A stretch of 37,890 nt of DNA from a virus. The notes under the pieces were generated by a model. It was given only the letters and a program-made list of their open reading frames with translations, was not told where the DNA came from and did not search any database. Where the stretch lies: positions 1-37,890 of IMG/VR virus record IMGVR_UViG_3300047564_000622; one strand, written 5' to 3'. Below, one piece after another: positions 764-19,232 of the stretch. Both the position numbers and the translations under genes were made by a program. Each line of letters opens with the position of its first letter. The first letter of the stretch is position 1.

Positions 764-2911
764 TCAACTGATGAGTGTGGCGAAGGAGGTCAGCATCTTC
801 TTATTGACGCCTTTCTTGGCGAGTGCTTTAGTAAATGCCTTGCCGATTTCTTTCTCGGTAGCATCATCTTCAACATCAAATTCGCTATTCGCAGATAGCG
901 AATCAGTGCCCATCATGTAAAGTGCTTGATAACCAAGATGCTCAATCAGTTCAGCGGACTTGTTTTTCTTCCACTGCTTTTGAACTTCATCCCAAGAAGT
1001 TTTACAATCTTCAGCATTGTAGGTGGTGTTAAGACCACGACCATTCACCAGACGAATACCGATAAGGTTTACATCAGGGAAACGATCACGCACATTCTGA
1101 AGAAACACTTTGGTGATTTTATCAGAGTTACCATAGTAACCACCATCATCAAAGCGAGGATACACACGACCAGTTTTACGATCACGCAGAACACAATCAT
1201 TGGTTACATGATTCGTGCCCATACGGCTACCATACTTCTGGTCAGTGTAGTAGTTGATGCTGGCAGATTCACCGTCAGTCAGAATAATAACGTTGGTCTT
1301 TTGAACCTTGTTACGCTTCTGAAAGGCAGGGATAAGTGCAGTCAGAGAGATTGCTGCCTCATGGAGAGGAGTGCCAGACAGACCATAACCAGCAGGAATA
1401 GAGTAACCAGAGTAGCTACCATTGCCAACAACAAGACGCCAGAAGTTTTTAAGTTGTGCTTCAAGGTCTTTGCCGTTGCGACCGTTGCTGCTGACAAGAT
1501 TCAGCATGTTGAAGTGGTCACACAGTTTGACTTGACCCGCCTTAGGAGTTTGAATGCGAGGAGATTTGTTGCGAGTTTGAGTGTGATAATCGTAGCTTCG
1601 GTGATACCAGTAGTCATTGGTAAAAGCATAGATGTCAAAAGGAATCTGCACTTTCTTACAGAACCATGCAAGGTTCAACAGTTGCTTAGCAGTATCTTGC
1701 AGGATACCACCCATAGAACCAGACCAGTCAAGGATAAAAATCAGACCATGATTCTTACCATCAGGCACAACATTGATTTTCTTAAACACATCCTCATTCC
1801 ACTTGTAGGTATGAAGCAGCGCAGTATCAAGGATACCAGTCTTGGCAGTAGATGCACGGGCATACTGGTCCGCCGACTTACGCATCTCAAACTCTTTTAC
1901 AAGATAGTTAACCTCACGCTGAGCTTCGCTACGGAAAGTCAGATACTGTTTGTCAACCTCAGCAAACACACGAGAGGTTTGCTCATTGAAGCAAGTGTTG
2001 CAGTCTTCCTGCACTTGCTTGTTAGAGACAACAATGTTATCTACTTTGAGGTCAGGCAGCTCAATGTAGTTGAGGTGCTGCGAACGAGGATACTGACTAA
2101 TCAGTTGTTTCTGATTCTCAGTAAATGCCTTGTCAGTTTCAGACTCAAGCGTATTCGTTTGACCACCACCATTGGTAGCACCTTCACCCTGATCATCGGG
2201 TTGATCGGAATCAGCGTTACCTTCAGTTTGGTTACCGTCACCAGAAGTTTGCTGAGGTTGCTCACCCTCACCATCAGTAGAGTCACCCCCACCTTGAGTG
2301 GAATCACCCCCACCTTGAGTAGATTGCTGAAGGTCGCCTTGCGCCTCAACAACCTGCTGTTGTTCCTGTTGCTCAGTGTATGCAAGAATCTTGCGAGCAA
2401 CATCCACAACTTGCTCAAAAGTTTCGGCATTAGCAAGCTCATCTACGATTGCTTTTTCTTGCTCATTCCAAGAGAAGACTTCACCAGCGTGAATGCCAAT
2501 CTTAAAGTAAAGATTCACACGGTCAATCAAAGCATAACTATCCAGCTCACGCTCACCGATACAGAAGAAATCATCATCCTGCAGTTCTTTATAACCAGCG
2601 TAGAAGTTACGGGCGAGACCAGGAAACTTACGCTTCATCAGTTTCTCAATACGAGCATCCTCGCACACGTTGAGATACGACTGAGGAATGCCATAGTCAT
2701 CACCCCAACGGTCAGGGGTGTAGAGAGCGTGACCGACTTCATGCCCCACCAGCATATCGTAGACGTTGGCGGATGCCCGCTCCCACATCGGCAGGGTGAG
2801 GATACGGTCTTTCACGTTGAACATCGCCGTCTCTACAGGGCGGTGCTCAATGATAAGGTTCTCGGTGGCGAGAAGGCGAGCGAGATTGCCCTTGACTTCG
2901 GCGTTGAACAT
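764..2911 (-). CDS. CobT-like VWA protein with N-terminal HExxH motif
   Basis: This 715-residue protein has three parts. The N-terminus carries HEVGH at 57-61 and a downstream ED.RIE at 84-89, a layout seen in zinc metallopeptidase-like folds. Residues about 180-265 are a Gln/Gly/Asp/Ser-rich linker. The C-terminal half is a von Willebrand A domain with the MIDAS motif DWSGS at 395-399, a Thr in SGTPL near 514 and TDGES at 545-549. CobT subunits of cobalt chelatase and other MoxR partners have the same acidic-linker plus VWA design. The ATG at 2911 is preferred over an in-frame ATG at 2935. It follows GAAAGAGA at good spacing, while the upstream ATG lies inside the probable -10 box. It lies just upstream of the CobS-like gene on the same strand. 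Cyanophage relatives are often annotated as peptidase; neither activity is proven. Confidence 0.85.
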   Translation of the reverse strand: MFNAEVKGNLARLLATENLIIEHRPVETAMFNVKDRILTLPMWERASANVYDMLVGHEVGHALYTPDRWGDDYGIPQSYLNVCEDARIEKLMKRKFPGLARNFYAGYKELQDDDFFCIGERELDSYALIDRVNLYFKIGIHAGEVFSWNEQEKAIVDELANAETFEQVVDVARKILAYTEQQEQQQVVEAQGDLQQSTQGGGDSTQGGGDSTDGEGEQPQQTSGDGNQTEGNADSDQPDDQGEGATNGGGQTNTLESETDKAFTENQKQLISQYPRSQHLNYIELPDLKVDNIVVSNKQVQEDCNTCFNEQTSRVFAEVDKQYLTFRSEAQREVNYLVKEFEMRKSADQYARASTAKTGILDTALLHTYKWNEDVFKKINVVPDGKNHGLIFILDWSGSMGGILQDTAKQLLNLAWFCKKVQIPFDIYAFTNDYWYHRSYDYHTQTRNKSPRIQTPKAGQVKLCDHFNMLNLVSSNGRNGKDLEAQLKNFWRLVVGNGSYSGYSIPAGYGLSGTPLHEAAISLTALIPAFQKRNKVQKTNVIILTDGESASINYYTDQKYGSRMGTNHVTNDCVLRDRKTGRVYPRFDDGGYYGNSDKITKVFLQNVRDRFPDVNLIGIRLVNGRGLNTTYNAEDCKTSWDEVQKQWKKNKSAELIEHLGYQALYMMGTDSLSANSEFDVEDDATEKEIGKAFTKALAKKGVNKKMLTSFATLIS
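2283..2324 (-). repeat. 21-bp tandem repeat, two copies, in the VWA protein linker
   Basis: Two adjacent 21-bp units (2283-2303 and 2304-2324) differ at a few positions. They encode a twice-repeated STQGGGD heptapeptide in the low-complexity linker between the HExxH region and the VWA domain. The repeat keeps the frame, so copy-number change would only alter linker length. Confidence 0.8.
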
Positions 2912-2934
2912 CGGTCTCTTTCGTTGATGAATCA

Positions 2935-2963
2935 ACTATACAGCAAAGGGGTCGCCGCAGCAA
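2935..2963 (-). promoter_or_regulatory. possible sigma-70-like promoter of the CobT-like gene
   Basis: On the minus strand TTGCTG (2963-2958) is followed by a 17-base spacer and TATAGT (2940-2935). The predicted start near 2928 lies downstream of the ATG at 2935 and upstream of the ATG at 2911, which supports the shorter protein. CCCCTTTGC followed two bases later by TATA is shared with the region in front of the CobS-like gene. Confidence 0.4.
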
Positions 2964-2968
2964 CCCCT
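2947..2968 (-). other. hairpin between gp46 and the CobT-like gene
   Basis: A 9-bp stem (2947-2955 with 2960-2968, one T-G wobble) closes a four-base loop just after the gp46 stop codon. Only three T residues follow on the minus strand, so it is not a canonical rho-independent terminator. It could weakly separate the recombination operon from the VWA/ATPase pair. Confidence 0.4.
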
Positions 2969-2974
2969 GTTAAG

Positions 2975-4699
2975 CTATTCTGATGTCTCGTCTGTGACGT
3001 ATGAGAAGTTCTTATGCTTCTCAAATCTGAGGCAGCGGTCAAACTTGTCTGCCATATTGTCGCGGTGTGAAATAACAAACACATTAGTTTTGTCATCAAA
3101 TGTTTTTAGAATCCATCCAAGGTCGCTGTTACCAGATTGGTCAAGTGACCCGTCAAAGATTTCATCAAGAATCAGAAGATTAGTATCCACGCTATTCTTA
3201 AGTTTAGCAACGCTACGCCAAGTAAGCAGCAGAGCAATATCGATTCTAGCTTTTTCTCCTTCAGAAAAAGATTCATAACTAAACTCGTCCCTATATCGTG
3301 ATTTGATTACCTCTTCAAAACTTTCATTTAACATGAACGATGCTGGAAACTCCATCTTATCAAGGTAATCATTGATAAGTTTGTTCATCGTTGGGAGGTA
3401 TTTTTTGATGATCCTCGTTTTGATCCCCGAGTCTTTGAGAAGTTGTGCCGCCGTGAGGAGGCAATCTTTTTCTTCTTTTGTTTCAGAAATAGTTTCTTGG
3501 ATTTGCTTCCCGTCTTCGCTGAGGGATTTAAGTATTGAAAACTGTTCCCGTTGACTGATATCTGAATCCCGCAGTTTTCTGATGTCGTCGTCCAGTTCTT
3601 CAATTCGTTTATGAAGTGACTTAATTTCATTATTGAGTTGTCGATTCTTTAGATTGAGTTCGTTTATTTCATCAATCAAAAGAATAAAGGTATTCTCTTT
3701 ACTTTGGAGATCGGAAAGTTGTTGTCCCAAATCAGACATAGCTTTTTCCACCTCAACAAGTTTATCCGAGAGAACTTGGATCTTCTCTTGTTTAAAATGC
3801 TCCTCAATACTCTGTCCGCATGTCGGGCACGAATCATTCTGCTCAAAGAATATTTTTTCCTTATGATATGTTTTTTGTTTGGATGATATTTTGTTGCTGA
3901 GCGTATTAACCTTAGTGATCGTTGCTTTAAGCGTCTGCGTGTCTGAAACGGCAGAGGTCTTAGCGTCGATTTCCTTGTCATTATCGAGGATTTGTGTCTC
4001 ATAATCTAGAGCCTCTTGTAGAAGAGTTTCTTTGCGATTCTCTTTTTGTTGAATGTCTTCTTTATTCTTCTTTTCAATGTCAAGCATAAACTGCTTCTGC
4101 ATGTCAATCTTCTCTTTGACAAGTGAGAGTTTATATTCGTGGTCTTTAAGTTCGTCGTTGATTACTTTGATTTTTTCTTTCAGATTGACATTCATAGTCG
4201 AGAAGATTTGAATGTCAAGAATGTCTTCGATGATTTCTCTACGAGCTGCCAGTGGAAGACGCATGAATGGCACAAAGGTCGATGACCCCAGCACAACAAT
4301 CTGAGTAAACGATTTGTAGTTCATCTTCAGAATCGTTTGCTCAAAATGTTTCTGCTGATCTACGGCAGATGAATCTTGGTTGAGTAGCGCACCATTCTGA
4401 TAGATTTCAAACTTCGCTGGTTTAATACCACGAATCACTTTGTATTTATTATTGCCAATATCAAAGTTAACTTCTACAACACAATCAGATTGATTGATAG
4501 AGTTGAGAAGTTGTGGTTTATTAATCTTGCGAAAAGGTTTACCAAACAAAGAAAAAGTAAGGGCATCTAAAATGGTTGACTTGCCAGCACCATTGGTTCC
4601 TACAATCAAACTACTCTTTCTATCAGTCAGAGAAATCTCTGTGAACTGAGCACCAGTAGAAAGAAAGTTTTTCCATTTAATCGTCTTGAAAATTATCAT
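2975..4699 (-). CDS. 46: gp46 recombination endonuclease subunit (Rad50/SbcC-like)
   Basis: The 574-residue product is the SMC-like ATPase subunit of the phage gp46/gp47 nuclease. In T4 this complex processes DNA ends for recombination-dependent replication and host DNA breakdown. Walker A is GTNGAGKS at 34-41. Two long coiled-coil arms flank a zinc hook (CPTC, 291-294). The ABC signature FSEGEKARID is at 478-487 and Walker B LLILDEIFD at 508-516. Length is close to T4 gp46 (560). The start at 4699 (MIIFKTIKWKNFL) is chosen because it begins directly with the conserved N-terminal strand. An in-frame ATG at 4738 would add 13 unrelated residues. The start overlaps the end of the preceding small gene, suggesting translational coupling with the operon gp55-gp47-small protein-gp46. 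Confidence 0.95.
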   Translation of the reverse strand: MIIFKTIKWKNFLSTGAQFTEISLTDRKSSLIVGTNGAGKSTILDALTFSLFGKPFRKINKPQLLNSINQSDCVVEVNFDIGNNKYKVIRGIKPAKFEIYQNGALLNQDSSAVDQQKHFEQTILKMNYKSFTQIVVLGSSTFVPFMRLPLAARREIIEDILDIQIFSTMNVNLKEKIKVINDELKDHEYKLSLVKEKIDMQKQFMLDIEKKNKEDIQQKENRKETLLQEALDYETQILDNDKEIDAKTSAVSDTQTLKATITKVNTLSNKISSKQKTYHKEKIFFEQNDSCPTCGQSIEEHFKQEKIQVLSDKLVEVEKAMSDLGQQLSDLQSKENTFILLIDEINELNLKNRQLNNEIKSLHKRIEELDDDIRKLRDSDISQREQFSILKSLSEDGKQIQETISETKEEKDCLLTAAQLLKDSGIKTRIIKKYLPTMNKLINDYLDKMEFPASFMLNESFEEVIKSRYRDEFSYESFSEGEKARIDIALLLTWRSVAKLKNSVDTNLLILDEIFDGSLDQSGNSDLGWILKTFDDKTNVFVISHRDNMADKFDRCLRFEKHKNFSYVTDETSE

Positions 4700-4964
4700 A
4701 AGATCTAGGGGGAACAATAATGTCGTCAGGTTCAACAATGAGGTATTTCATACCTCGCAACTCACACATACCAACACCTGCTTTAGTATCAACTTCATAA
4801 GTCATGAGTGGAGGAAGACTGTCATCATCTTGATTTGCTACAAGCAATCCAAGATAACGCTCCGCATCATCTTCCTCCCGAAAAAAGTATACCACATGAT
4901 CACCCTCTTCGTCAAGAACCGAGTATACTCCGTCTGGATGTTCAGCAAGAGTGATCAAAAACAT
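4677..4964 (-). CDS. small conserved protein between gp47 and gp46 (DUF3110-like?)
   Basis: This 95-residue protein has no catalytic motif. Its N-terminal half alternates short strands with an acidic EEDDAERYLGLL helix. This recalls the small cyanobacterial DUF3110 family, in which a similar EEDDA.RY pattern is typical; that match is from memory and tentative. Its ATG at 4964 abuts the gp47 stop codon (4965-4967), and its end overlaps the gp46 start by about 23 bases. It is therefore translated with the two nuclease subunits and could modulate them, but its function is unknown. Confidence 0.82.
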   Translation of the reverse strand: MFLITLAEHPDGVYSVLDEEGDHVVYFFREEDDAERYLGLLVANQDDDSLPPLMTYEVDTKAGVGMCELRGMKYLIVEPDDIIVPPRSYDNFQDD

Positions 4965-6014
4965 TTATACTACCTCACAGCTTTCAATATATAGTGATTT
5001 CATTATACTCTTTAACTTTGCTTTGTCTACAGCAATCTCTACCTCATCAATATATTCATTAAGAAGGGTGAGTGTATCTTTGATTTCTACGTTCTCGTCT
5101 TCTTCTACAAAAGAATCATTGACAAGCGTTTCGATAATTTTGACATCGTGAGGAGCAACTGCAAACACAGAGTCTACAAACTTTTCAAACTCAGTATAAT
5201 CTTTTTTATCTTCTACGATAATCTTGACAAAAGAATTTGCACACTCACTGGTATCGAAGCTGAGATGAGAACCAGTAGAATCATTATAATAGATTTTCTG
5301 GAAAATCTCATAAGGGTTCTTGACCCGCTTGAGTTTATTTGTTGTTGGTTCATATAGATGAAATCCTCGCTCGTCTTTGTAATCATTCCAAAACATCTGA
5401 TAGGGGTTACCAAGATAAGTAATGTTACCTCTGGATGATTTGTGATGATAGTGCCCAGAAAATACTTGTTTGAACTTTTTGAAGATGGAAGGATCCATAC
5501 CATGTTCTTGTTTGTTGCCAGGCGTCACTTCAAAACCAGATAGTTCAAGATGACCCATAGCAATCTCAGCACTGGTGCCCTCAAGATGCCTCATGGTATC
5601 CTCATAGTTGCTTGAGTTGATCCAAGGCAACATCAGAATCTTAGCACCATCAATCATTACCGTCTCTGGGTGAGCGTAGATTTCAATGTTGCTGAAGTCC
5701 TTGAGCAGAAGTTCGGGTGAGTTAATCTCGTTCGTATTCTTGTAGTAGGTGCAGTGATTGCCAAGGATCATGTGAACGAAGATACCCATATCTTCAAGAC
5801 GTTGAAAATAATAGCTACGCACACGGTTCCAAACATTAAAGTCAATGCCTTTGCGATTGTCAAAGGTATCGCCTAGGTCAATGACTGTTTTGATATTCTG
5901 CTTTTCCAACGTAGGAAAGAATACATCATCATAAAACTTTTTGAAGTATTCCCAAAAAGCAATACTGCCTTTCCTTCCATCAAGATGCTGGTCTGTGATA
6001 AGTGCAACTGTCAT
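4965..6014 (-). CDS. 47: gp47 recombination endonuclease subunit (Mre11/SbcD-like)
   Basis: This 349-residue calcineurin-like phosphoesterase is the nuclease partner of gp46. The metal-binding motifs appear in order: D8 and H10 (TDQHLDG), GD at 48-49, GNHC at 85-88, GHLEL near 154-158 and SGHYHH at 186-191. The length matches T4 gp47 (339). Its ATG overlaps the gp55 stop codon (ATGA), so translation is probably coupled to the late sigma factor gene upstream. The gp47 and gp46 reading frames lie in the order and orientation seen in T4-like phages, with one small gene in between. Confidence 0.95.
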   Translation of the reverse strand: MTVALITDQHLDGRKGSIAFWEYFKKFYDDVFFPTLEKQNIKTVIDLGDTFDNRKGIDFNVWNRVRSYYFQRLEDMGIFVHMILGNHCTYYKNTNEINSPELLLKDFSNIEIYAHPETVMIDGAKILMLPWINSSNYEDTMRHLEGTSAEIAMGHLELSGFEVTPGNKQEHGMDPSIFKKFKQVFSGHYHHKSSRGNITYLGNPYQMFWNDYKDERGFHLYEPTTNKLKRVKNPYEIFQKIYYNDSTGSHLSFDTSECANSFVKIIVEDKKDYTEFEKFVDSVFAVAPHDVKIIETLVNDSFVEEDENVEIKDTLTLLNEYIDEVEIAVDKAKLKSIMKSLYIESCEVV

Positions 6015-6526
6015 CGTTTAGATCTGATCTCAAGGTTTTCTTTAATGCTGTTCATGTCAGCACTGCTGCTACTATAACCATACATGTCACCACCGTGACT
6101 GTCCATATGCAAAACTTCATCAAACCCAGACCTTTCAAGAATCTTAGCTTTGATTTCTAGTTGCTTTTTCTCTCGCTGAATACGACGAAGAAAAGCATAA
6201 TAGATGATTTGAGTAAAATAAGCAAATGGGTTAGTAGATTTTTCTGGATTAAAGTTGTCAATATACTGAAGACAGTTTTCAATACCGTCACAGATCATAT
6301 CTTCCCTAAACATGTAGTTGACAAAGTTAGGTTTATATGATAGGTGTGTGGCAATCTTTAGAAAACACTCTCCAATGTAGTTTGGTACTTTTGGTTTTGG
6401 TATTCCCTTTTCTTTGGCAGCAGCAACTTGTTGCCGATAAACCATAAGGGCATCCAAAAATTCCCTGTTGTTTACATAGTTTTCTTTGGTTGCCCTTCTA
6501 GCCATGGGTTTGTTTGCTACTAACAT
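6011..6526 (-). CDS. 55: gp55 late-transcription sigma factor
   Basis: This 171-residue protein resembles the T4 gp55 family of very small sigma-70 relatives. These direct host RNA polymerase to late promoters with a TATAAATA box and work with the sliding clamp. The recognisable part is a region-2-like block at roughly residues 50-135. It runs from ECFLKIATHLSYKPNF through NPFAYFTQIIYYAFLRRIQREKK, the core- and -10-binding helices. There is no region 4, as expected. An in-frame ATG at 6505 (MARRATKENYV) is an equally credible start; neither start has a clear ribosome binding site. Many NATAAATA boxes in this window are the probable targets. Transcription likely begins at the leftward sigma-70 promoter near 6550-6578. 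Confidence 0.9.
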   Translation of the reverse strand: MLVANKPMARRATKENYVNNREFLDALMVYRQQVAAAKEKGIPKPKVPNYIGECFLKIATHLSYKPNFVNYMFREDMICDGIENCLQYIDNFNPEKSTNPFAYFTQIIYYAFLRRIQREKKQLEIKAKILERSGFDEVLHMDSHGGDMYGYSSSSADMNSIKENLEIRSKR

Positions 6527-6549
6527 TTGCTTTTATTTACTCTGTGTGT

Positions 6550-6578
6550 ATTGTAACACACCGAGCAACGTTTGTAAA
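6550..6578 (-). promoter_or_regulatory. sigma-70-like promoter of the gp55-gp47-gp46 operon
   Basis: On the minus strand TTTACA (6578-6573) is separated by 17 bases from TACAAT (6555-6550). Each box matches five of six consensus positions. The predicted start is near 6543, about 17 bases before the first ATG of gp55. It stands back to back with a rightward promoter, with only five bases between the two -35 boxes. Confidence 0.6.
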
Positions 6579-6583
6579 GGGGC

Positions 6584-6612
6584 TTGACAAGACCTTATAT
6601 TCTGTGTATAAT
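6584..6612 (+). promoter_or_regulatory. perfect consensus sigma-70 promoter facing right (antisense)
   Basis: TTGACA at 6584-6589, exactly 17 bases, then TATAAT at 6607-6612: both boxes are perfect. The expected start is near 6619. There is no convincing plus-strand gene downstream. A transcript would run antisense to the 139-aa gene (6628-7047) and then uvsW. A 26-codon open frame (6617-6697, starting MSRFQDL) begins at about the start site but has no leader or ribosome binding site. No clear terminator was found downstream. Confidence 0.6.
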
Positions 6613-6627
6613 AGCAATGTCGCGCTT

Positions 6628-7047
6628 TCAAGATTTATTATATATCTCTTCTAATAACTTCTTAGCTTCTTTAATAGATCCTAGATATCCTTCATGATCT
6701 TTGGGGTCTTGTTTTTTTGTATTTGATTTTTGTTCCTTCGATCTGGATTTTCTATATTTACTTTTATCATTTAAATGATCTTCGTAAAATCCACAGATTT
6801 TATTATCTAGTTCAATCATAGTTATAATATGACTTCTGGGAATAATAAACATATCTTCGTGAGTGGCGTTGATCCAATCATCAAAGACGATTCCTTCTAC
6901 AATCATATTAGTTTTTTTAATTTCTATTTTTTCAACTATGCGAGGATTAAACACAATAACAACATCATCATCTGGATCATAACTAACTTTAGCTACGATC
7001 TCTTCTCCAGATGTAAGTTTCATTGATGCATAAAAATCTTCTTCCAT
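6628..7047 (-). CDS. small Sm-like (LSm/Hfq-type fold?) protein
   Basis: This 139-residue protein has an N-terminal block of short strands, roughly residues 5-88. The pattern ASMKLTSGEEIVAKV, then a conserved-looking FNPRIVE, then MFIIPRSHIITMIEL is suggestive of the two-part Sm fold (Sm1 and Sm2). The C-terminal 45 residues are Lys/Ser-rich and probably disordered, ending in a short helix. The similarity is a pattern judgement only. The gene lies between UvsW and gp55 in the same direction, with one base between its start and the UvsW stop. A perfect rightward promoter just beyond its 3' end would make RNA antisense to it. Function unknown. Confidence 0.8.
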   Translation of the reverse strand: MEEDFYASMKLTSGEEIVAKVSYDPDDDVVIVFNPRIVEKIEIKKTNMIVEGIVFDDWINATHEDMFIIPRSHIITMIELDNKICGFYEDHLNDKSKYRKSRSKEQKSNTKKQDPKDHEGYLGSIKEAKKLLEEIYNKS

Positions 7048-7048
7048 G

Positions 7049-8527
7049 TTACTTTAAATCCAGTTTAATGATTTCTACATTGAACTTTTCTTCTTCATAG
7101 ATTTTCAAACGTTCATCTAAATGTTTCAGCGTATAGTTTTTTTGTGGTGTTCTGCAATACTCATCGGCAATGTCATAAAGAGTAGCGTAAGTTTTGTTAT
7201 TGCCCTTACGCAATACACGACCGATAGACTGTAAGTTTCTTACTCTTGATTTTGAAGGTGAAGCAAATACAACATTGTGTAGGTTACGAATGTTGATGCC
7301 AGTGCTAAATGTTCCGTATGAAGCAACAATCACTGCGTTGTTTTCAGTTTCAGTGATGCGTCTAATCTCTTCGCGTTCTTCAGTGTCTACACCACCATAG
7401 ACCAGAAAAACTTTACGACCTTCTTCAACAACACTATTTATCGCCTCGTAAAGTGGCATCCCGTGACGCTCCACATAGTTGAAGAGAACCAGAGAGTTTC
7501 CTTCTAAGTCACGCACAAGATTTTTAATCAACCTATTGCGTTTTGGATTATCTACAATCGCATCAATCTCTCCTTGATAATCAAAGAACTCCATTCTCTC
7601 ATGCTTCAGCAAAAGAACTTTGATTCTGAAATCAGATAGGTGACCTTCTTTGATAAGTTTTTCTGTCTTGGTAACATGCTTACATTCACCAAACAATCCT
7701 TCAAGCACCCACTTATGAGTAGCAGATCCATCAAGTGTGCCAGTGAAACCAAAACGATACTTAGCTTCATGCAACTTAGTCATGATGCCAGTAAGAGATT
7801 TAGATTTGAATAGGTGTGCCTCGTCACCGATGACACAGGAGAAGTCATCAAACCAACGCTTAGGAAACTTGTAGATAGATTGCCAAGTAGAAATGATAAC
7901 TGCTTTCTCTACGTTTTTATCTTTGCCGCCATAGATTCTGTGACAGTGTTCATCAACATCCCATCCATAATCAGCAAAGTCATTATACATCTGTTCCACT
8001 AGTGAAGTAGTAGGAACAATGATAAGTGTTTTCTTTCCTGACTTTTTATACTCTGCTGCATAGTAGTAACGTACTAGAGAATAAATCATCAAAGATTTAC
8101 CTGAAGCAGTTGGAGAGAGTAGAAGTCTACGATTGTTTAGCAGTGCTTCATACACTGCTTGAACTTGATAGTCGCGTGGTTCGTGATTGGGGCATACAGC
8201 TCCCATGAAACCTTTGACACCCTCTAAGGTAATCTGTTCATTTTTTTCTTCTACATCGCCATAGAACTTATTAGACTCATAAGAAATAGAATAGTTTTTA
8301 ATACCACACCATTCTTTTAAGTGAGAAATAAGACCACAATATAGTTCACCTGTTCCTGGTGAATACAATCTAATCTTGCCATCCCATACACCACTTTTGT
8401 ATTGTGGCATAAACTTGGCATTAGGAATATCGAACGTAAAATAATCTGCTAACTCGTAATGAACGTGAGGTTCTGCTTTGATGGTCAGATAAATGTTGTT
8501 CTTTTTTGCAACTGCCAGATTTGTCAT
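7049..8527 (-). CDS. uvsW: UvsW-like superfamily 2 DNA/RNA helicase
   Basis: The 492-residue product matches the UvsW family. In T4 it branch-migrates recombination intermediates and unwinds R-loops, switching origin replication to recombination-dependent replication. An N-terminal domain of about 110 residues precedes a DYQVQAV Q-motif-like segment (119-125). Walker A is PTASGKS at 139-145, and DEAH is at 235-238. Motif III is FTGTLDG (261-267), and motif VI is QSIGRVLR (433-440). The length is close to T4 UvsW (503). Its ATG overlaps the UvsY stop (TAATG), so translation is coupled. Confidence 0.95.
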   Translation of the reverse strand: MTNLAVAKKNNIYLTIKAEPHVHYELADYFTFDIPNAKFMPQYKSGVWDGKIRLYSPGTGELYCGLISHLKEWCGIKNYSISYESNKFYGDVEEKNEQITLEGVKGFMGAVCPNHEPRDYQVQAVYEALLNNRRLLLSPTASGKSLMIYSLVRYYYAAEYKKSGKKTLIIVPTTSLVEQMYNDFADYGWDVDEHCHRIYGGKDKNVEKAVIISTWQSIYKFPKRWFDDFSCVIGDEAHLFKSKSLTGIMTKLHEAKYRFGFTGTLDGSATHKWVLEGLFGECKHVTKTEKLIKEGHLSDFRIKVLLLKHERMEFFDYQGEIDAIVDNPKRNRLIKNLVRDLEGNSLVLFNYVERHGMPLYEAINSVVEEGRKVFLVYGGVDTEEREEIRRITETENNAVIVASYGTFSTGINIRNLHNVVFASPSKSRVRNLQSIGRVLRKGNNKTYATLYDIADEYCRTPQKNYTLKHLDERLKIYEEEKFNVEIIKLDLK

Positions 8528-9003
8528 TAGGTGCTACCGTTAATAAACTTCTCCCACTCGATAGCGTTTTTAATTTGGAAACTTCTGTTGGAAATCATTT
8601 TAAGAACATTATCCAAAAAGAAAAGTGCCTTATTAATAAACTCTATTTTCATCTCAATGTTAATCAAATCCTCATCCGCTTCTAGATATACTTTCATCTT
8701 CTCGGATGTTTTTATGGATTGCCCAAAAGGTTTTTCTTTGTAAACTTCAGGATCGGCTTCGCCTTGATAATATTCTCTTTTTTCTTTTAACTTCATACGA
8801 TACTGGAACTCCAGTGCAGTCTTCTCTGTAGAAAAATCGTTGTAGAAGTTTAAATATTTATTGTGTTGGTAAGGAATGTCTAGCGAGATTTGTGCTAGGT
8901 CTGCTGAGTATTGTTTGTTTTTAAACTGGAAGTCGATATGTGAATCTTCTTGCCATTCTGATTTAACATGATTAAAAAGGGTTCTCAAATCATCAAACTT
9001 CAT
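8527..9003 (-). CDS. uvsY: UvsY-like recombination mediator
   Basis: The 158-residue product resembles T4 UvsY (137 residues), which loads the UvsX recombinase on single-stranded DNA covered by gp32. The family features seen are the N-terminal MKFDDL helix and a central KEKREYYQGEAD segment matching the LKARLDYYSGRGD region of T4. Further on are a KMKVYLEADEDLI segment and a C-terminal block ending in ISNRSFQIKNAIEWEKF, like the T4 IKSRGFAIKH region. The gene is directly followed by uvsW with overlapping stop and start. It is preceded by the 170-residue tube-like gene, three bases away, so all three are probably cotranscribed. Confidence 0.9.
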   Translation of the reverse strand: MKFDDLRTLFNHVKSEWQEDSHIDFQFKNKQYSADLAQISLDIPYQHNKYLNFYNDFSTEKTALEFQYRMKLKEKREYYQGEADPEVYKEKPFGQSIKTSEKMKVYLEADEDLINIEMKIEFINKALFFLDNVLKMISNRSFQIKNAIEWEKFINGST

Positions 9004-9006
9004 AAA

Positions 9007-9519
9007 TCACAACTCCTCGTTATTTTTATTTGTAAAATAATATCTAAAAAACTTAAAGGTTACATTAGCAGTAATGTATTCTACATCTTGATCACCAACA
9101 TCAAACTCAACTCCAGACAAATCTATTGGAAATAATCTTTCAAAAAATACTATTCTATTTGTTTTAAAGTTACTATTCAGTATATGAAGTTCAGCATTAC
9201 AAAACTCTATACCACTATCATCGTAAGTTTCTGCTAGATTATTTTTTTGAATCCAATCAAAAATAGAGAGATAGTTTTTTAAATCTTCATCAATAATAAA
9301 CTGTAATCTGAAATCTCCATAAGTTACACCACCTGCAGAAGGTATAGACAAACTTCTAAATGGAGTTGGAACTTCTGTAGTAGGAACTGAAATATCAGGA
9401 ACTCCAGCTCTTTGACAGAAAAAATCTACACCTGGAAAAAGTTCTAACTCTAGTTTAAAACCCGCTGGAGCAAGAAAGTTTCTATTTGCTGGTTGTTCTT
9501 CAAACCATTTTGCTGGCAT
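9007..9519 (-). CDS. tail-tube-like (gp19-fold) structural protein
   Basis: The 170-residue product resembles the tail tube family more than any head protein. A hydrophobic strand ends in PFRSLSIPSAGGVTYGDF. It is followed by RLQFIIDEDLKNYLSIFDWI, the same IPF.G...GD.....F..D......I..W pattern seen in gp19 (14763-15353) in this window. The C-terminal half has the repeated strand layout ending in VEYITANVTFKFFRYYF. It could be a baseplate-proximal tube or initiator protein like gp54/gp48, or another virion component. It has its own AATAAATA late box and an AAGGA ribosome binding site, right after the gp23 terminator. Confident as a coding gene, less so in role. Confidence 0.75.
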   Translation of the reverse strand: MPAKWFEEQPANRNFLAPAGFKLELELFPGVDFFCQRAGVPDISVPTTEVPTPFRSLSIPSAGGVTYGDFRLQFIIDEDLKNYLSIFDWIQKNNLAETYDDSGIEFCNAELHILNSNFKTNRIVFFERLFPIDLSGVEFDVGDQDVEYITANVTFKFFRYYFTNKNNEEL

Positions 9520-9538
9520 GATCTTATCCTTTTTTTAC

Positions 9539-9546
9539 TATTTATT
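9539..9546 (-). promoter_or_regulatory. late promoter box before the 170-aa tube-like gene
   Basis: AATAAATA on the minus strand, 20 bases before the ATG at 9519 and just downstream of the gp23 terminator. It matches the T4 late box at seven of eight positions. Confidence 0.55.
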
Positions 9547-9552
9547 TCCATA

Positions 9553-9581
9553 AAAAAAGACCCCCCTTGCGGGAGGTCTGA
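9553..9581 (-). terminator. rho-independent terminator after gp23
   Basis: On the minus strand a 9-bp stem (9581-9573 with 9568-9560, one T-G pair) closes a GCAA tetraloop and is followed by seven T residues. It lies 16 bases past the gp23 stop and would insulate the very highly expressed capsid gene from the recombination genes. Confidence 0.92.
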
Positions 9582-9596
9582 GAAGAACCTGATAAA

Positions 9597-11018
9597 TCAG
9601 GTGAGGTTGGTAACCTTAACTCTTCTGTAATACTGGTTAGTATTAGGAGTAAGGATGCCGCCATCTGGAGTACCACCAGCGATACCATTAACGTTTGTGG
9701 TTGAAACGAATGGGTTGCTGACCATACCGTAACGAGTCTTGAATCCAATCTTAGGCTGGAAGGTGTCAGGATTGATCGAACGAACCATTTGGAGGGGAAC
9801 GTATGGGCAATAGAAGAGACCAGCATCATAAGGTGATGTGCCCTTATAACCCATGACGTAGTAGTGCTTAGCAGCCTGACCTTGTGAGTAAACAGGAGCA
9901 CCGAATGGATCGATGTAAACACGGATACCACCCTGAAGAACACCAGCAAATACGTTACCAGTGTCATCAACGTTGAGTGAAGTGTTGAGAGCAGGAGCGT
10001 AATCAAGCATACCAGCCATGCTCATAGCGGAAGCAACGTCTGCTGAGCAGATCATGAAGTTGCCCTTACCTCTACGGGTGAGTTGACCGATTGCGTTTGC
10101 ATCACGCTGGATTTGGAATAGGAGACCCTTGAACTTCTCTGCCATCCAACGACCGTTTGAATCGATATCAAGGTCGAAAGTACCCTGAGTAGCAACGTCT
10201 TGCTGAGCACCAGGAAGTGCAACAGTGTAAACGGTACGGATGATTTCACGGTTGATCTCAGCGAGGATCTCGCTTGAGAGTAGGTTGGCGAGCTCTTGCT
10301 CAGCATCAAGACCATGGATTGCCTTGAGGTCTTGTGCTAGCTCTAGGGTGTACTCAGCCTTGAGAGCGCGTGTCTTAGCAGTCACCGAGGTCTTCTCGAT
10401 GCTGAACGCCATCTCGCGGAATAGAGTATTTGCTTCACCTAGAACTTCAGAAGTCTCACGGCTCATGCCACGAGCAACTTCGTATGCAGAAGGTACTGCA
10501 TCGTTAAGAACTGCAGGGTTGTTGCCCTCAGCATCTCCACCAGTTCCGTCAGCACCACGAACGTTATAAGCGCCCTTGGTTGCATCGTAACCAGCTGAGA
10601 ATGCCTCGTCTGGTTCGTAGTAGAGAGCCTCAGCGCCGCCTTGGTTCTCGTAACGAGCACGCATTGCGAAGATAAGACCAGTAGGACCGCTCATTGGTTG
10701 AACGCCAGCGATGTCATAAGCGACAAGGTTAGGCATTGAACGGCGGATTAGGCTGATTAGGATAGGATCGAAACCAGCGAGACCAGCAGTGTTGCTGGAT
10801 GATAGAGCTGAACCAGCAGGTGCGATAGTTGCGGAACCTAATGAGTTTACCTGTGAGGTAACTTCATGAAGCATACCGTGCTCTTCGCGGATAGCACGCT
10901 CTTGGTTTTCTAGCAGGGTAGCAACAACCTGTTTACGATATGCATCCTTGATTTCAGGAAGACCACCGTGATTTAGAACAGGTGCCCACTTTTCCTGCAA
11001 AATTCTTGTGTCAGACAT
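9597..11018 (-). CDS. 23: gp23 major capsid protein
   Basis: The 473-residue product is the T4-type major capsid protein, which forms hexamers in the prolate or isometric head. The family signature is clear: an N-terminal helical region that is removed on maturation, then FDPILISLIRRSMPNLVAYD (83-102), SGPTGLIFAMRARY (109-122) and a C-terminal GFKTRYGMVSNPF. T4 gp23 has 521 residues. An LHE at 50-52 fits the (I/L)-x-E site cut by the gp21 protease, but the exact site is inferred. An AATAAATA late box lies about 37 bases upstream and a strong terminator follows. The scaffold gp22 and protease gp21 genes are immediately upstream. Confidence 0.97.
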   Translation of the reverse strand: MSDTRILQEKWAPVLNHGGLPEIKDAYRKQVVATLLENQERAIREEHGMLHEVTSQVNSLGSATIAPAGSALSSSNTAGLAGFDPILISLIRRSMPNLVAYDIAGVQPMSGPTGLIFAMRARYENQGGAEALYYEPDEAFSAGYDATKGAYNVRGADGTGGDAEGNNPAVLNDAVPSAYEVARGMSRETSEVLGEANTLFREMAFSIEKTSVTAKTRALKAEYTLELAQDLKAIHGLDAEQELANLLSSEILAEINREIIRTVYTVALPGAQQDVATQGTFDLDIDSNGRWMAEKFKGLLFQIQRDANAIGQLTRRGKGNFMICSADVASAMSMAGMLDYAPALNTSLNVDDTGNVFAGVLQGGIRVYIDPFGAPVYSQGQAAKHYYVMGYKGTSPYDAGLFYCPYVPLQMVRSINPDTFQPKIGFKTRYGMVSNPFVSTTNVNGIAGGTPDGGILTPNTNQYYRRVKVTNLT

Positions 11019-17120: not shown

Positions 17121-17342
17121 TTACCAGTCAGGATATTCCCATGTATTTGGGGATTTTTTATTTGCCATCAATCTCTTGATAGTGCAATCTTTACACTCAT
17201 AAGAGTATGACGAAGGTAAATGTCTCTTTGATTTTCTTATAATATAATAGTCATCTAAAAGATCTTTGATCTCTCCACAACATCTACATGTTCTTTCTTT
17301 AAACAATAAATGTTCCAGTGAAAACTGATCTTCGATGTCCAT
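17121..17342 (-). CDS. small zinc-ribbon protein after gp17
   Basis: The ATG at 17342 overlaps the gp17 stop codon (TGATG). It gives a 73-residue protein; a longer frame from 17402 lies within gp17 and is not favoured. Residues TCRCCGEIKDLLDDYY and YECKDCTIKR form a CxxC...CxxC zinc ribbon, spaced about 25 residues apart. The same ribbon is common at the N-terminus of phage HNH endonucleases and in small phage DNA-associated proteins. No HNH motif follows here. It ends in NKKSPNTWEYPDW. Translation is coupled to the large terminase, so a role in packaging or DNA processing is possible but unproven. Confidence 0.75.
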   Translation of the reverse strand: MDIEDQFSLEHLLFKERTCRCCGEIKDLLDDYYIIRKSKRHLPSSYSYECKDCTIKRLMANKKSPNTWEYPDW

Positions 17343-19006
17343 CAGTAACCCAACATATATTCTACATCTGCAAACGGATTGCCGTATCCATCTGTATACC
17401 AAACGTTTCCGTCTTCATCAACAAATTTTTCTTCTTCGTCAATGATTCCATCTGATATAAATCCGAAAGGTGCCATATCTTGTTCAATCTGATTCTTCTG
17501 TTCTTCGTAGATACGCTTGCGAACATCGTTATCAGTCATCTCCCTGAAGTAAGGTTGAACCGCCAACCACGAGAATAGAACTAGACACATCACAAGGTCA
17601 TCGTTATATCCATCGTCAGCTTCAAACGATTGATTCTTTTGAATAAATGTAGTGAGTTCACTGATAATCTCATAGTCTGAGATTAATAGTTTATCGTCTT
17701 CAATCAATGTCTTTAAGTTTGAGCACCCAACTTTCTTAGTCACCTTCGACATCTTCAGACCAAGTTGAGATTTGGTGCCAGAGAATCCTTGACCAACAAT
17801 CTGACCAGCTCTACCACGCATGGCACACATTAGAATGTTTGGATACTCTAAATCGTAATGAAGAATATTAGTTACCTGCTCACCGATGTCATTGACTTCT
17901 GCTAGAATATATGCTTTGTTATAGTTTTTGCCAACCTGTTCAATAATGTTGGGGAATAGGATTGGTTTGATTTCGTTGTTTCGATACTTAGCAACTATCT
18001 TCCAGGGTAGTGTGGTAATATCGAATACGACAAAAGCGGAGTAATCATTGTTGGTTCCACGGGATACATCGACTGTCATGATGTAGTCGTGATCTTTCTT
18101 TGCTTCCTCGTATACCTTTAATCCTTTGCTATTATCTTGTATAGGGTCTTCAAAGACCATTGAACGCAACTTAGCAGCCGAGATAAGCGTATCAACTGAT
18201 CCTAGGAACTCACACTCAAACTCCTGCGTGAACTGCCTCTCGGAGGTGTTCCTGATCGTCTCTTCCTTCCACTTCTCATCTCTGCCAGGAACTGCACTCC
18301 AATGAACTTCAAGGGGCACGTAGCCGTTCCTGCCGCGCTCTGCGTCATGCCACAGCTTATAGAACATGTTCATACCCTGTGGGGTGGAAATGATAATAAC
18401 CTTTGTGGTCTTACCAGACGAGATGGTAGGATATACGGACGAGAAGAACTGTTCCGCCATGTGGTTAGGAACGAACGCAAACTCGTCAAGGAAGATGATG
18501 TTGAAAGAGTTTCCTCGCACAGCAGATGATGAGGTGGATGCTGCTATAATCTTGGAACCATTATCCAGTTCCATAGATCCTTTGTTCCATGCTACAATAC
18601 CTTGCTGCATCCACTTCGGTAGATTCTCATATGCTAACTGCAAACGAGACAGAAGTTCTCTTGACGTTTCTGCTTTGTTTGCTAGAATAGCAATCTTGAT
18701 GTTGTCGTTGAATACTGCGTAGTGCAACAGGTAGGAAATAACCGTTGTCGATTTTCCTGTCTGTCTTGGAAGTTTGGCAATATTAAATCTGTTATTATGA
18801 AAGTTTTCAATCAGTTTCTCTTGGAAATCATACATCTCAAAAGGAACAAGACCTTCATCAAGTGAGATGATCTTTACATAGTTCTTTGCAAAGTAAACAG
18901 GATCATCTTTGCATTTAATAAACTCTTCGACTTGATCCTTTGTAAAACTAATAGCGGTATTAGCTTTCTTTAGATTAGGATTACCAAGATATACTGCATC
19001 ACTCAT
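17342..19006 (-). CDS. 17: gp17 large terminase subunit (ATPase and nuclease)
   Basis: The 554-residue product is the T4-type packaging motor (T4 gp17, 610 residues). It pumps DNA through the gp20 portal and cuts the concatemer. The N-terminal ATPase has Walker A LPRQTGKST at 79-87, Walker B IIFLDEFA at 170-177 and the coupling motif STP at 207-209. The RNase H-like nuclease has catalytic acidic residues at D313 (TVDVSRG), E370 (AEVNDIG) and the D469/D470 pair (YNDDLVM). The start overlaps the preceding 77-residue gene by 8 bases. A consensus sigma-70 promoter lies upstream of both. Confidence 0.97.
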   Translation of the reverse strand: MSDAVYLGNPNLKKANTAISFTKDQVEEFIKCKDDPVYFAKNYVKIISLDEGLVPFEMYDFQEKLIENFHNNRFNIAKLPRQTGKSTTVISYLLHYAVFNDNIKIAILANKAETSRELLSRLQLAYENLPKWMQQGIVAWNKGSMELDNGSKIIAASTSSSAVRGNSFNIIFLDEFAFVPNHMAEQFFSSVYPTISSGKTTKVIIISTPQGMNMFYKLWHDAERGRNGYVPLEVHWSAVPGRDEKWKEETIRNTSERQFTQEFECEFLGSVDTLISAAKLRSMVFEDPIQDNSKGLKVYEEAKKDHDYIMTVDVSRGTNNDYSAFVVFDITTLPWKIVAKYRNNEIKPILFPNIIEQVGKNYNKAYILAEVNDIGEQVTNILHYDLEYPNILMCAMRGRAGQIVGQGFSGTKSQLGLKMSKVTKKVGCSNLKTLIEDDKLLISDYEIISELTTFIQKNQSFEADDGYNDDLVMCLVLFSWLAVQPYFREMTDNDVRKRIYEEQKNQIEQDMAPFGFISDGIIDEEEKFVDEDGNVWYTDGYGNPFADVEYMLGY

Positions 19007-19232
19007 TTGCTCTACTAATATCCTTTTCGATTTCTTGCATACTATTTAATCTCTTTTCCCACCCATCGCCTTTGGTGGTTCCTTGTGCTGGATTGATACA
19101 AGTATCATCTCCAAACTTATCACAAACTAAAGAAGCGAGTTCAGTTTCATTTCCCCTCTTATTTGTGCCAGCCCAGAAGTGTTGCCCTCCAATCCAGCAA
19201 GCCCCACATTTAGGGCAGGTTTTGGTATCCAT
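18999..19232 (-). CDS. 77-aa cysteine-containing hypothetical protein before gp17
   Basis: This small protein begins TKTCPKCGACWIGGQHFW, an N-terminal CPxCGxxW zinc-ribbon-like start. Two more Cys follow at VCDKFGDDTC, so a four-Cys zinc site is possible. The rest is polar and helical. The ATG at 19232 has AAGGTAAG at good spacing. Its last codons overlap the gp17 start, suggesting coupling. It is the first gene after a perfect leftward sigma-70 promoter. Function unknown. Confidence 0.8.
   Translation of the reverse strand: MDTKTCPKCGACWIGGQHFWAGTNKRGNETELASLVCDKFGDDTCINPAQGTTKGDGWEKRLNSMQEIEKDISRANE

Follow-up and report, generated by a model that had tools for sequence, protein, structure and literature searches.

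The gap between the late sigma factor gene gp55 and an adjacent Sm-like protein gene in the viral DNA analyzed here (a stretch of 37,890 nt, hereafter the window) holds a rightward promoter embedded in a conserved 58-nt promoter-operator element, and a promoter of this kind is present at the same gene junction in all 151 related viral contigs in which the two genes are adjacent. Judged from sequence and conservation, the rightward promoter appears to be a regulatory part that has been retained rather than an accident. The explanation favored here, to which we give about an even chance, is that the boundary between uvsW-Sm and gp55 gives rise to a short antisense RNA, transcribed from an early promoter under operator control, and that this RNA acts locally.

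All genes surrounding the gap lie on the minus strand, with gp55 (6011-6526; phrog_234, E = 1e-67) to its left and the Sm-like gene (6628-7047), uvsW (7049-8527) and uvsY to its right. The Sm-like call made in the first-pass annotation was upheld by a match to Pfam family PF16243 (E = 1e-9) and by a predicted fold, with a core pLDDT of about 95, that matches the solved Sm/LSm-like structure 3BY7 (TM 0.85 on the target); eukaryotic LSm/Sm proteins gave weaker structural matches than 3BY7. The Sm-like label holds for the modeled protein and carries no information on Hfq-like function. A search of positions 4500-9600 of the window with Rfam covariance models returned no family match up to E = 1. 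The back-to-back promoter pair that the annotation had placed in the gap proved exact in both coordinates and sequence, and consists of the leftward gp55 promoter (TTTACA-17-TACAAT, minus strand, 6578-6550, with the -35 box at 6578-6573 and the -10 box at 6555-6550) and the rightward promoter (plus strand, -35 TTGACA at 6584-6589, 17-nt spacer, -10 TATAAT at 6607-6612), the two -35 boxes lying 5 bp apart. The rightward boxes agree with the sigma-70/SigA type (TTGACA and TATAAT at a spacing of 16-18 nt) in 12 of 12 positions. Using 60 first-order Markov shuffles, 0.05 such perfect promoters would be expected in the window and two were observed, the rightward promoter of the gp55 gap and a minus-strand promoter at 19286-19259. 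The latter (TTGACA-16-TATAAT) is the promoter of a cysteine-rich frame of 77 codons (18999-19232), located just upstream of a terminase-like gene (17342-19006), and is not accompanied by the start-site repeat described below.

Relatives were collected on the strength of protein similarity, with gp55 and the Sm-like protein as queries; the promoter was not used in their retrieval. The two genes are adjacent in 151 of the 153 loci having both, separated by a gap of roughly 90-260 bp. The rightward promoter matches the consensus at 10-12 of 12 positions in every one of the 151 gaps, with an exact TTGACA in 148 and a spacer of 17 nt in 135 and of 18 nt in 16, whereas only about 5% of shuffled gaps reach a score of at least 10/12. 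An apparent loss of the promoter in 15 loci was rejected as a scoring artefact, those loci having the 18-nt spacer. The element was also matched in 18 of 18 cyanophage isolate genomes inspected, a set made up of S-PM2 (analyzed by position-matrix scan), 12 genomes chosen as element matches and five taken from the gp55 list regardless of the element. Conservation of both promoters had been proposed as a check, and it was borne out in full for the rightward boxes, the loss of which in relatives did not occur, and in part for the leftward ones. The gp55 promoter scores at least 9/12 in 57 of 77 nonredundant loci (7% of shuffles), with a 17-nt spacer in 56 of those 57, so that the rightward promoter is the more constant of the two.

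The proximity of the two promoters is also conserved, the distance between their -35 boxes being 2-7 bp in 52 of the 57 loci with a conserved leftward promoter. Polymerase footprints on the pair must overlap, and it could be argued, given the conservation of the gp55 promoter and of its spacer, that the arrangement is a promoter-competition switch in which polymerase at the rightward promoter blocks the gp55 promoter until a phage factor releases gp55, the RNA itself being unimportant. With -35 boxes so close, such a switch is physically plausible, but we regard it as unlikely. About a quarter of the loci, many of the Prochlorococcus-phage type, are without a good leftward promoter and nonetheless keep the rightward one; two loci (L011 and L012), in which a 2-kb insertion (around 940-3001) splits gp55 from the Sm-like gene, retain the element 1 kb from gp55, separated from both genes and with a rightward gene downstream; and a competition switch would have no need of the terminator enrichment reported below. 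Within the L011/L012 insertion, the promoter element has been retained between a methyltransferase-like gene and a rightward frame.

When the loci were aligned on the promoter boxes, information content was limited to a block of about 55 nt comprising GGGGC, TTGACA, a weakly conserved spacer, TANAAT and AACTCTGTCAGGGTTCAAG, which yields the 58-nt consensus GGGGC-TTGACA-N17-TANAAT-AACTCTGTCAGGGTTCAAG. In the window the element spans 6579-6634 on the plus strand, where it matches the element model (R1) with E = 1.1e-12 and has its only copy in the 37.9 kb. The sequence following the -10 box forms an inverted repeat centered on the predicted transcription start, which in the window (6613-6626, plus strand) reads AGC AATGTCGC GCT and in most relatives AACTCT-GTC-AGGGTT. 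The TGT at its center, 6-7 nt after the -10 box, is conserved in 150 of 151 relatives. The arms differ between phages and remain complementary (AACTC/GGGTT, AACCT/AGGTT, AACAG/CTGTT, AACTT/AAGTT), and in none of 2,000 permutations across 77 loci was the observed complementarity reached, a result that holds with the commonest arm left out. Since its left arm precedes the predicted start, the repeat is read here as a putative DNA site. A 5' RNA hairpin was set aside, given that its 5' arm, at -6 to -1, should be outside the RNA, and is kept as a caveat: G-T pairs in the repeat are strand-biased (87 G-T versus 4 A-C cells) and the loop varies from 2 to 5 nt, features that could also reflect a structure formed in single-stranded DNA (the displaced strand) or in RNA instead of a DNA operator.

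As the first-pass annotation had stated, no plus-strand gene follows the rightward promoter in the window. The predicted product is an RNA of about 100 nt (6619-6718, plus strand, both ends being predictions) that covers the final ~91 bases of the Sm-like gene in antisense orientation. It would finish at an intrinsic-terminator-like hairpin and T run (6676-6718, plus strand), composed of a hairpin at 6676-6709 with a stability of -12.7 kcal/mol followed by TTGTTTTTTT; this structure was found by folding, a simple terminator scan having called none. The first-pass annotation had noted neither this terminator nor the start-site repeat nor the conservation. Among the relatives, hairpins that resemble terminators and are followed by T runs occur in excess at 90-170 nt downstream of the promoter, and terminators of -10 kcal/mol or better were found within the first 220 nt in 18% of 77 nonredundant loci, compared with 5% in shuffles and 0-9% in neighboring antisense stretches of the same genomes. 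Strong terminators therefore characterize only a minority of lineages, and a short RNA from the rightward promoter is favored in several lineages and is not extended to all. The antisense transcript proposed earlier keeps its orientation relative to the Sm-like gene, with the promoter pointing the same way in all relatives and isolates inspected, and loses its suggested reach into uvsW, since with a terminator-like hairpin ending near 6718 such read-through is unlikely. The overlap with the Sm-like gene is itself not universal, as 100-170 nt separate the promoter from the end of that gene in some lineages. Several of the longer gaps (L062, L038, L020, L024, L031 and L034) contain tandem cUUCGg hairpins on the minus strand, which probably terminate transcription of the Sm-like operon ahead of gp55.

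Three meanings had been offered for the promoter in the annotation. A regulatory one is supported, at the level of sequence, by its retention in 151 of 151 relatives and 18 of 18 isolates, and collision control at gp55 is possible. The pairing of an antisense RNA with the Sm-like protein, also raised there, is conjectural, whereas the Sm-like fold is upheld. The third, that it is a relic of a deleted rightward early gene, or else that it serves a conserved small protein, was rejected as highly improbable. A 26-codon frame does exist in the window and starts near the predicted transcription start, and other copies of the element drive small genes. Its ATG at 6617, however, falls 2 nt before the predicted start, and the frame was rejected as the product because it is not conserved among relatives. 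Wherever gp55 and the Sm-like gene are neighbors, the gap between them is free of rightward genes, and the constraint on the promoter is stronger than a relic would show.

Searching with the element model identified one to four copies in each of 28 long records, and among the records in which copy positions were checked one copy lies at the gp55 gap. In the position-matrix scan of S-PM2 the two copies score 68 and 54, and the next best site 9. The sequences following the -10 box match better between unlinked copies of the same genome than between genomes, with a mean of 13.3 of 15 positions versus 11.4 under permutation in ten genera. None of 20,000 permutations reached the within-genome arm match (p<5e-5; p=0.0034 once the two most divergent genera are left out), and the spacer, used as a control, showed no such effect (p=0.13). 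The same recognition sequence thus recurs at several promoters of a genome and co-evolves among them, the shared sequences being AGCAATGT in the close kin of the window, AACACTG in Syn9 and mostly CTGCCAG in S-8S56, S-PRM1 and S-CAM9. Because copies made alike by recent duplication or by gene conversion would be expected to share the spacer as well, the simplest cause is a trans-acting recognizer, and the start-site repeat is probably recognized by a phage-specific, lineage-specific candidate factor.

An exact-pattern scan of 84,980 bacterial and archaeal species, using one genome per species, returned three matches, on contigs labeled Synechococcus (two) and Lewinella (one) that are possibly viral and have no gp55 or Sm-like neighbor. 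A host origin of the element was rejected on the basis of these three contigs, the only ones in this single-pattern scan, and the near absence of the element from bacteria and archaea indicates that its regulator is probably phage-encoded. On the Lewinella-labeled contig (L288), which looks viral, the copy at 2684-2800 apparently lies just upstream of a tRNA-like sequence.

The extra copies are found mostly 16-54 nt before a small open frame, and the families behind them include unknown PHROG families, a homing-endonuclease-like protein and a minor-coat-like protein; in the close kin of the window, a 62-codon frame that matches no family follows the second copy. That most extra copies drive ordinary small genes speaks against the favored explanation of the gp55-gap copy, as does the arrangement in L011/L012, where the element is set apart from both genes and has a rightward gene downstream. 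Two extra copies, one in contig G015 (L331) and one in phage Sf-FR1 (L332), on the other hand, show the gp55-gap arrangement again at different gene pairs: the promoter lies in a gap between codirectional genes and points backward, in antisense, across the 3' end of the first. The genes so overlapped are an oxygenase-like one and an unnamed one that lies upstream of a helicase gene.

The neighborhood of the element also bears on a possible role in replication, in which an early rightward transcript would prime leading-strand synthesis from an R-loop, as at oriF and oriG of T4. Those origins consist of a promoter and an A+T-rich unwinding element, and UvsW removes R-loops (PMC3016281); the element is universal and lies in A+T-rich DNA beside uvsY-uvsW, and in Syn9 DnaA boxes precede its other copy by ~150-175 bp. 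Nevertheless, no GC-skew inflection was seen at the gap in S-PM2 or Syn9, the DnaA boxes near the gp55 copy (2 versus 0.5 expected) are not significant, the downstream A+T content of 0.70 is unremarkable, and up to four copies occur per genome, mostly before ordinary genes. We therefore judge an R-loop origin at the gap to be distinctly improbable. The Syn9 boxes form an inverted pair (NC_008296.2, 52565-52597; TTTTCCACA), and two DnaA boxes are present further upstream at the S-RIM8 locus (L340); a replication origin at either place is possible.

Returning to the operator-controlled antisense promoter, the rightward promoter would be the universally present copy of a promoter-operator element belonging to the Kyanoviridae. 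Its near-consensus -35 and -10 boxes would be recognized by host RNA polymerase carrying the primary sigma factor, for which reason the promoter should fire early, and initiation is predicted at the G of the conserved TGT, 6-7 nt downstream. A trans factor specific to the phage would bind at the start-site repeat, in the simplest case a repressor that later shuts the promoter off. Transcription from the gp55-gap copy would yield a non-coding RNA that is short (about 100 nt long in the window), opposes the 3' end of the Sm-like gene in antisense orientation and most likely acts locally via antisense pairing and head-on transcription. Its target would be the leftward mRNA running from uvsY-uvsW-Sm-like into gp55-47-46, leaving gp55 under its own promoter. 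To our knowledge, cyanophages lack MotA and AsiA. A broader circuit can be put forward tentatively and with low confidence, in which a phage repressor acts family-wide at one to four start-site repeats and the antisense RNA of the invariant target insulates or times gp55, replacing part of the MotA/AsiA middle mode.

How early, middle and late transcription are ordered without MotA and AsiA in T4-like cyanophages has been described as unresolved (PMC2984593), and a universal element that has a co-evolving start-site repeat and stands back to back with gp55 provides a defined target for this question. A further prediction is an antisense RNA, missing from annotations, in a group of viruses that is very abundant in the ocean. 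The element is absent from the annotation of all isolate records inspected, and no earlier description was found in the literature searched, which did not cover the Syn9 transcriptome work; one may exist, and the antisense RNA may already be present, unnoticed, in existing Syn9 transcriptome data. Antisense RNA and sigma-70-like early promoters are both known in cyanophages, whereas no account of the 58-nt element itself was found in the literature searched.

The divergent overlapping promoters of lambda (PR/PRM) and phi29 (A2b/A3) have operators at their start sites. The gp55 gap resembles them in its back-to-back promoters that cannot be co-occupied and in the putative regulator site at one of the two, and differs in that one arm makes a predicted antisense RNA, the regulator is only putative and the phage is strictly lytic. 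The element shares with T4 oriF/oriG a promoter, A+T-rich DNA and the uvsY/uvsW neighborhood (PMC3016281), but lacks a MotA box and a skew signal, and an R-loop role for it is hypothetical. The closest antisense precedent is CfrI of cyanophage S-PM2 (psbA/F-CphI), a cis-antisense RNA of ~200 nt and the first reported in T4-like phages (PMC2984593). Like the RNA of the gp55 gap, CfrI is a short cis-antisense RNA of a T4-like cyanophage running over the 3' end of one gene towards the next; unlike that RNA, which is predicted from sequence, it has been seen experimentally, at the psbA locus, and is annotated in NC_006820. CfrI is made without this element, the only two S-PM2 copies of which lie elsewhere. 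Early in infection, cyanomyoviruses are believed to rely on host polymerase in its unmodified form, and early promoters resembling the sigma-70 type have been described in both S-PM2 and Syn9 (PMC2984593). The element has the same TTGACA-17-TATAAT-like boxes as the host sigma-70/SigA-type early promoters of T4-like phages, and departs from them by its co-evolving start-site repeat, its one to four copies per genome and a universal copy that drives no gene.
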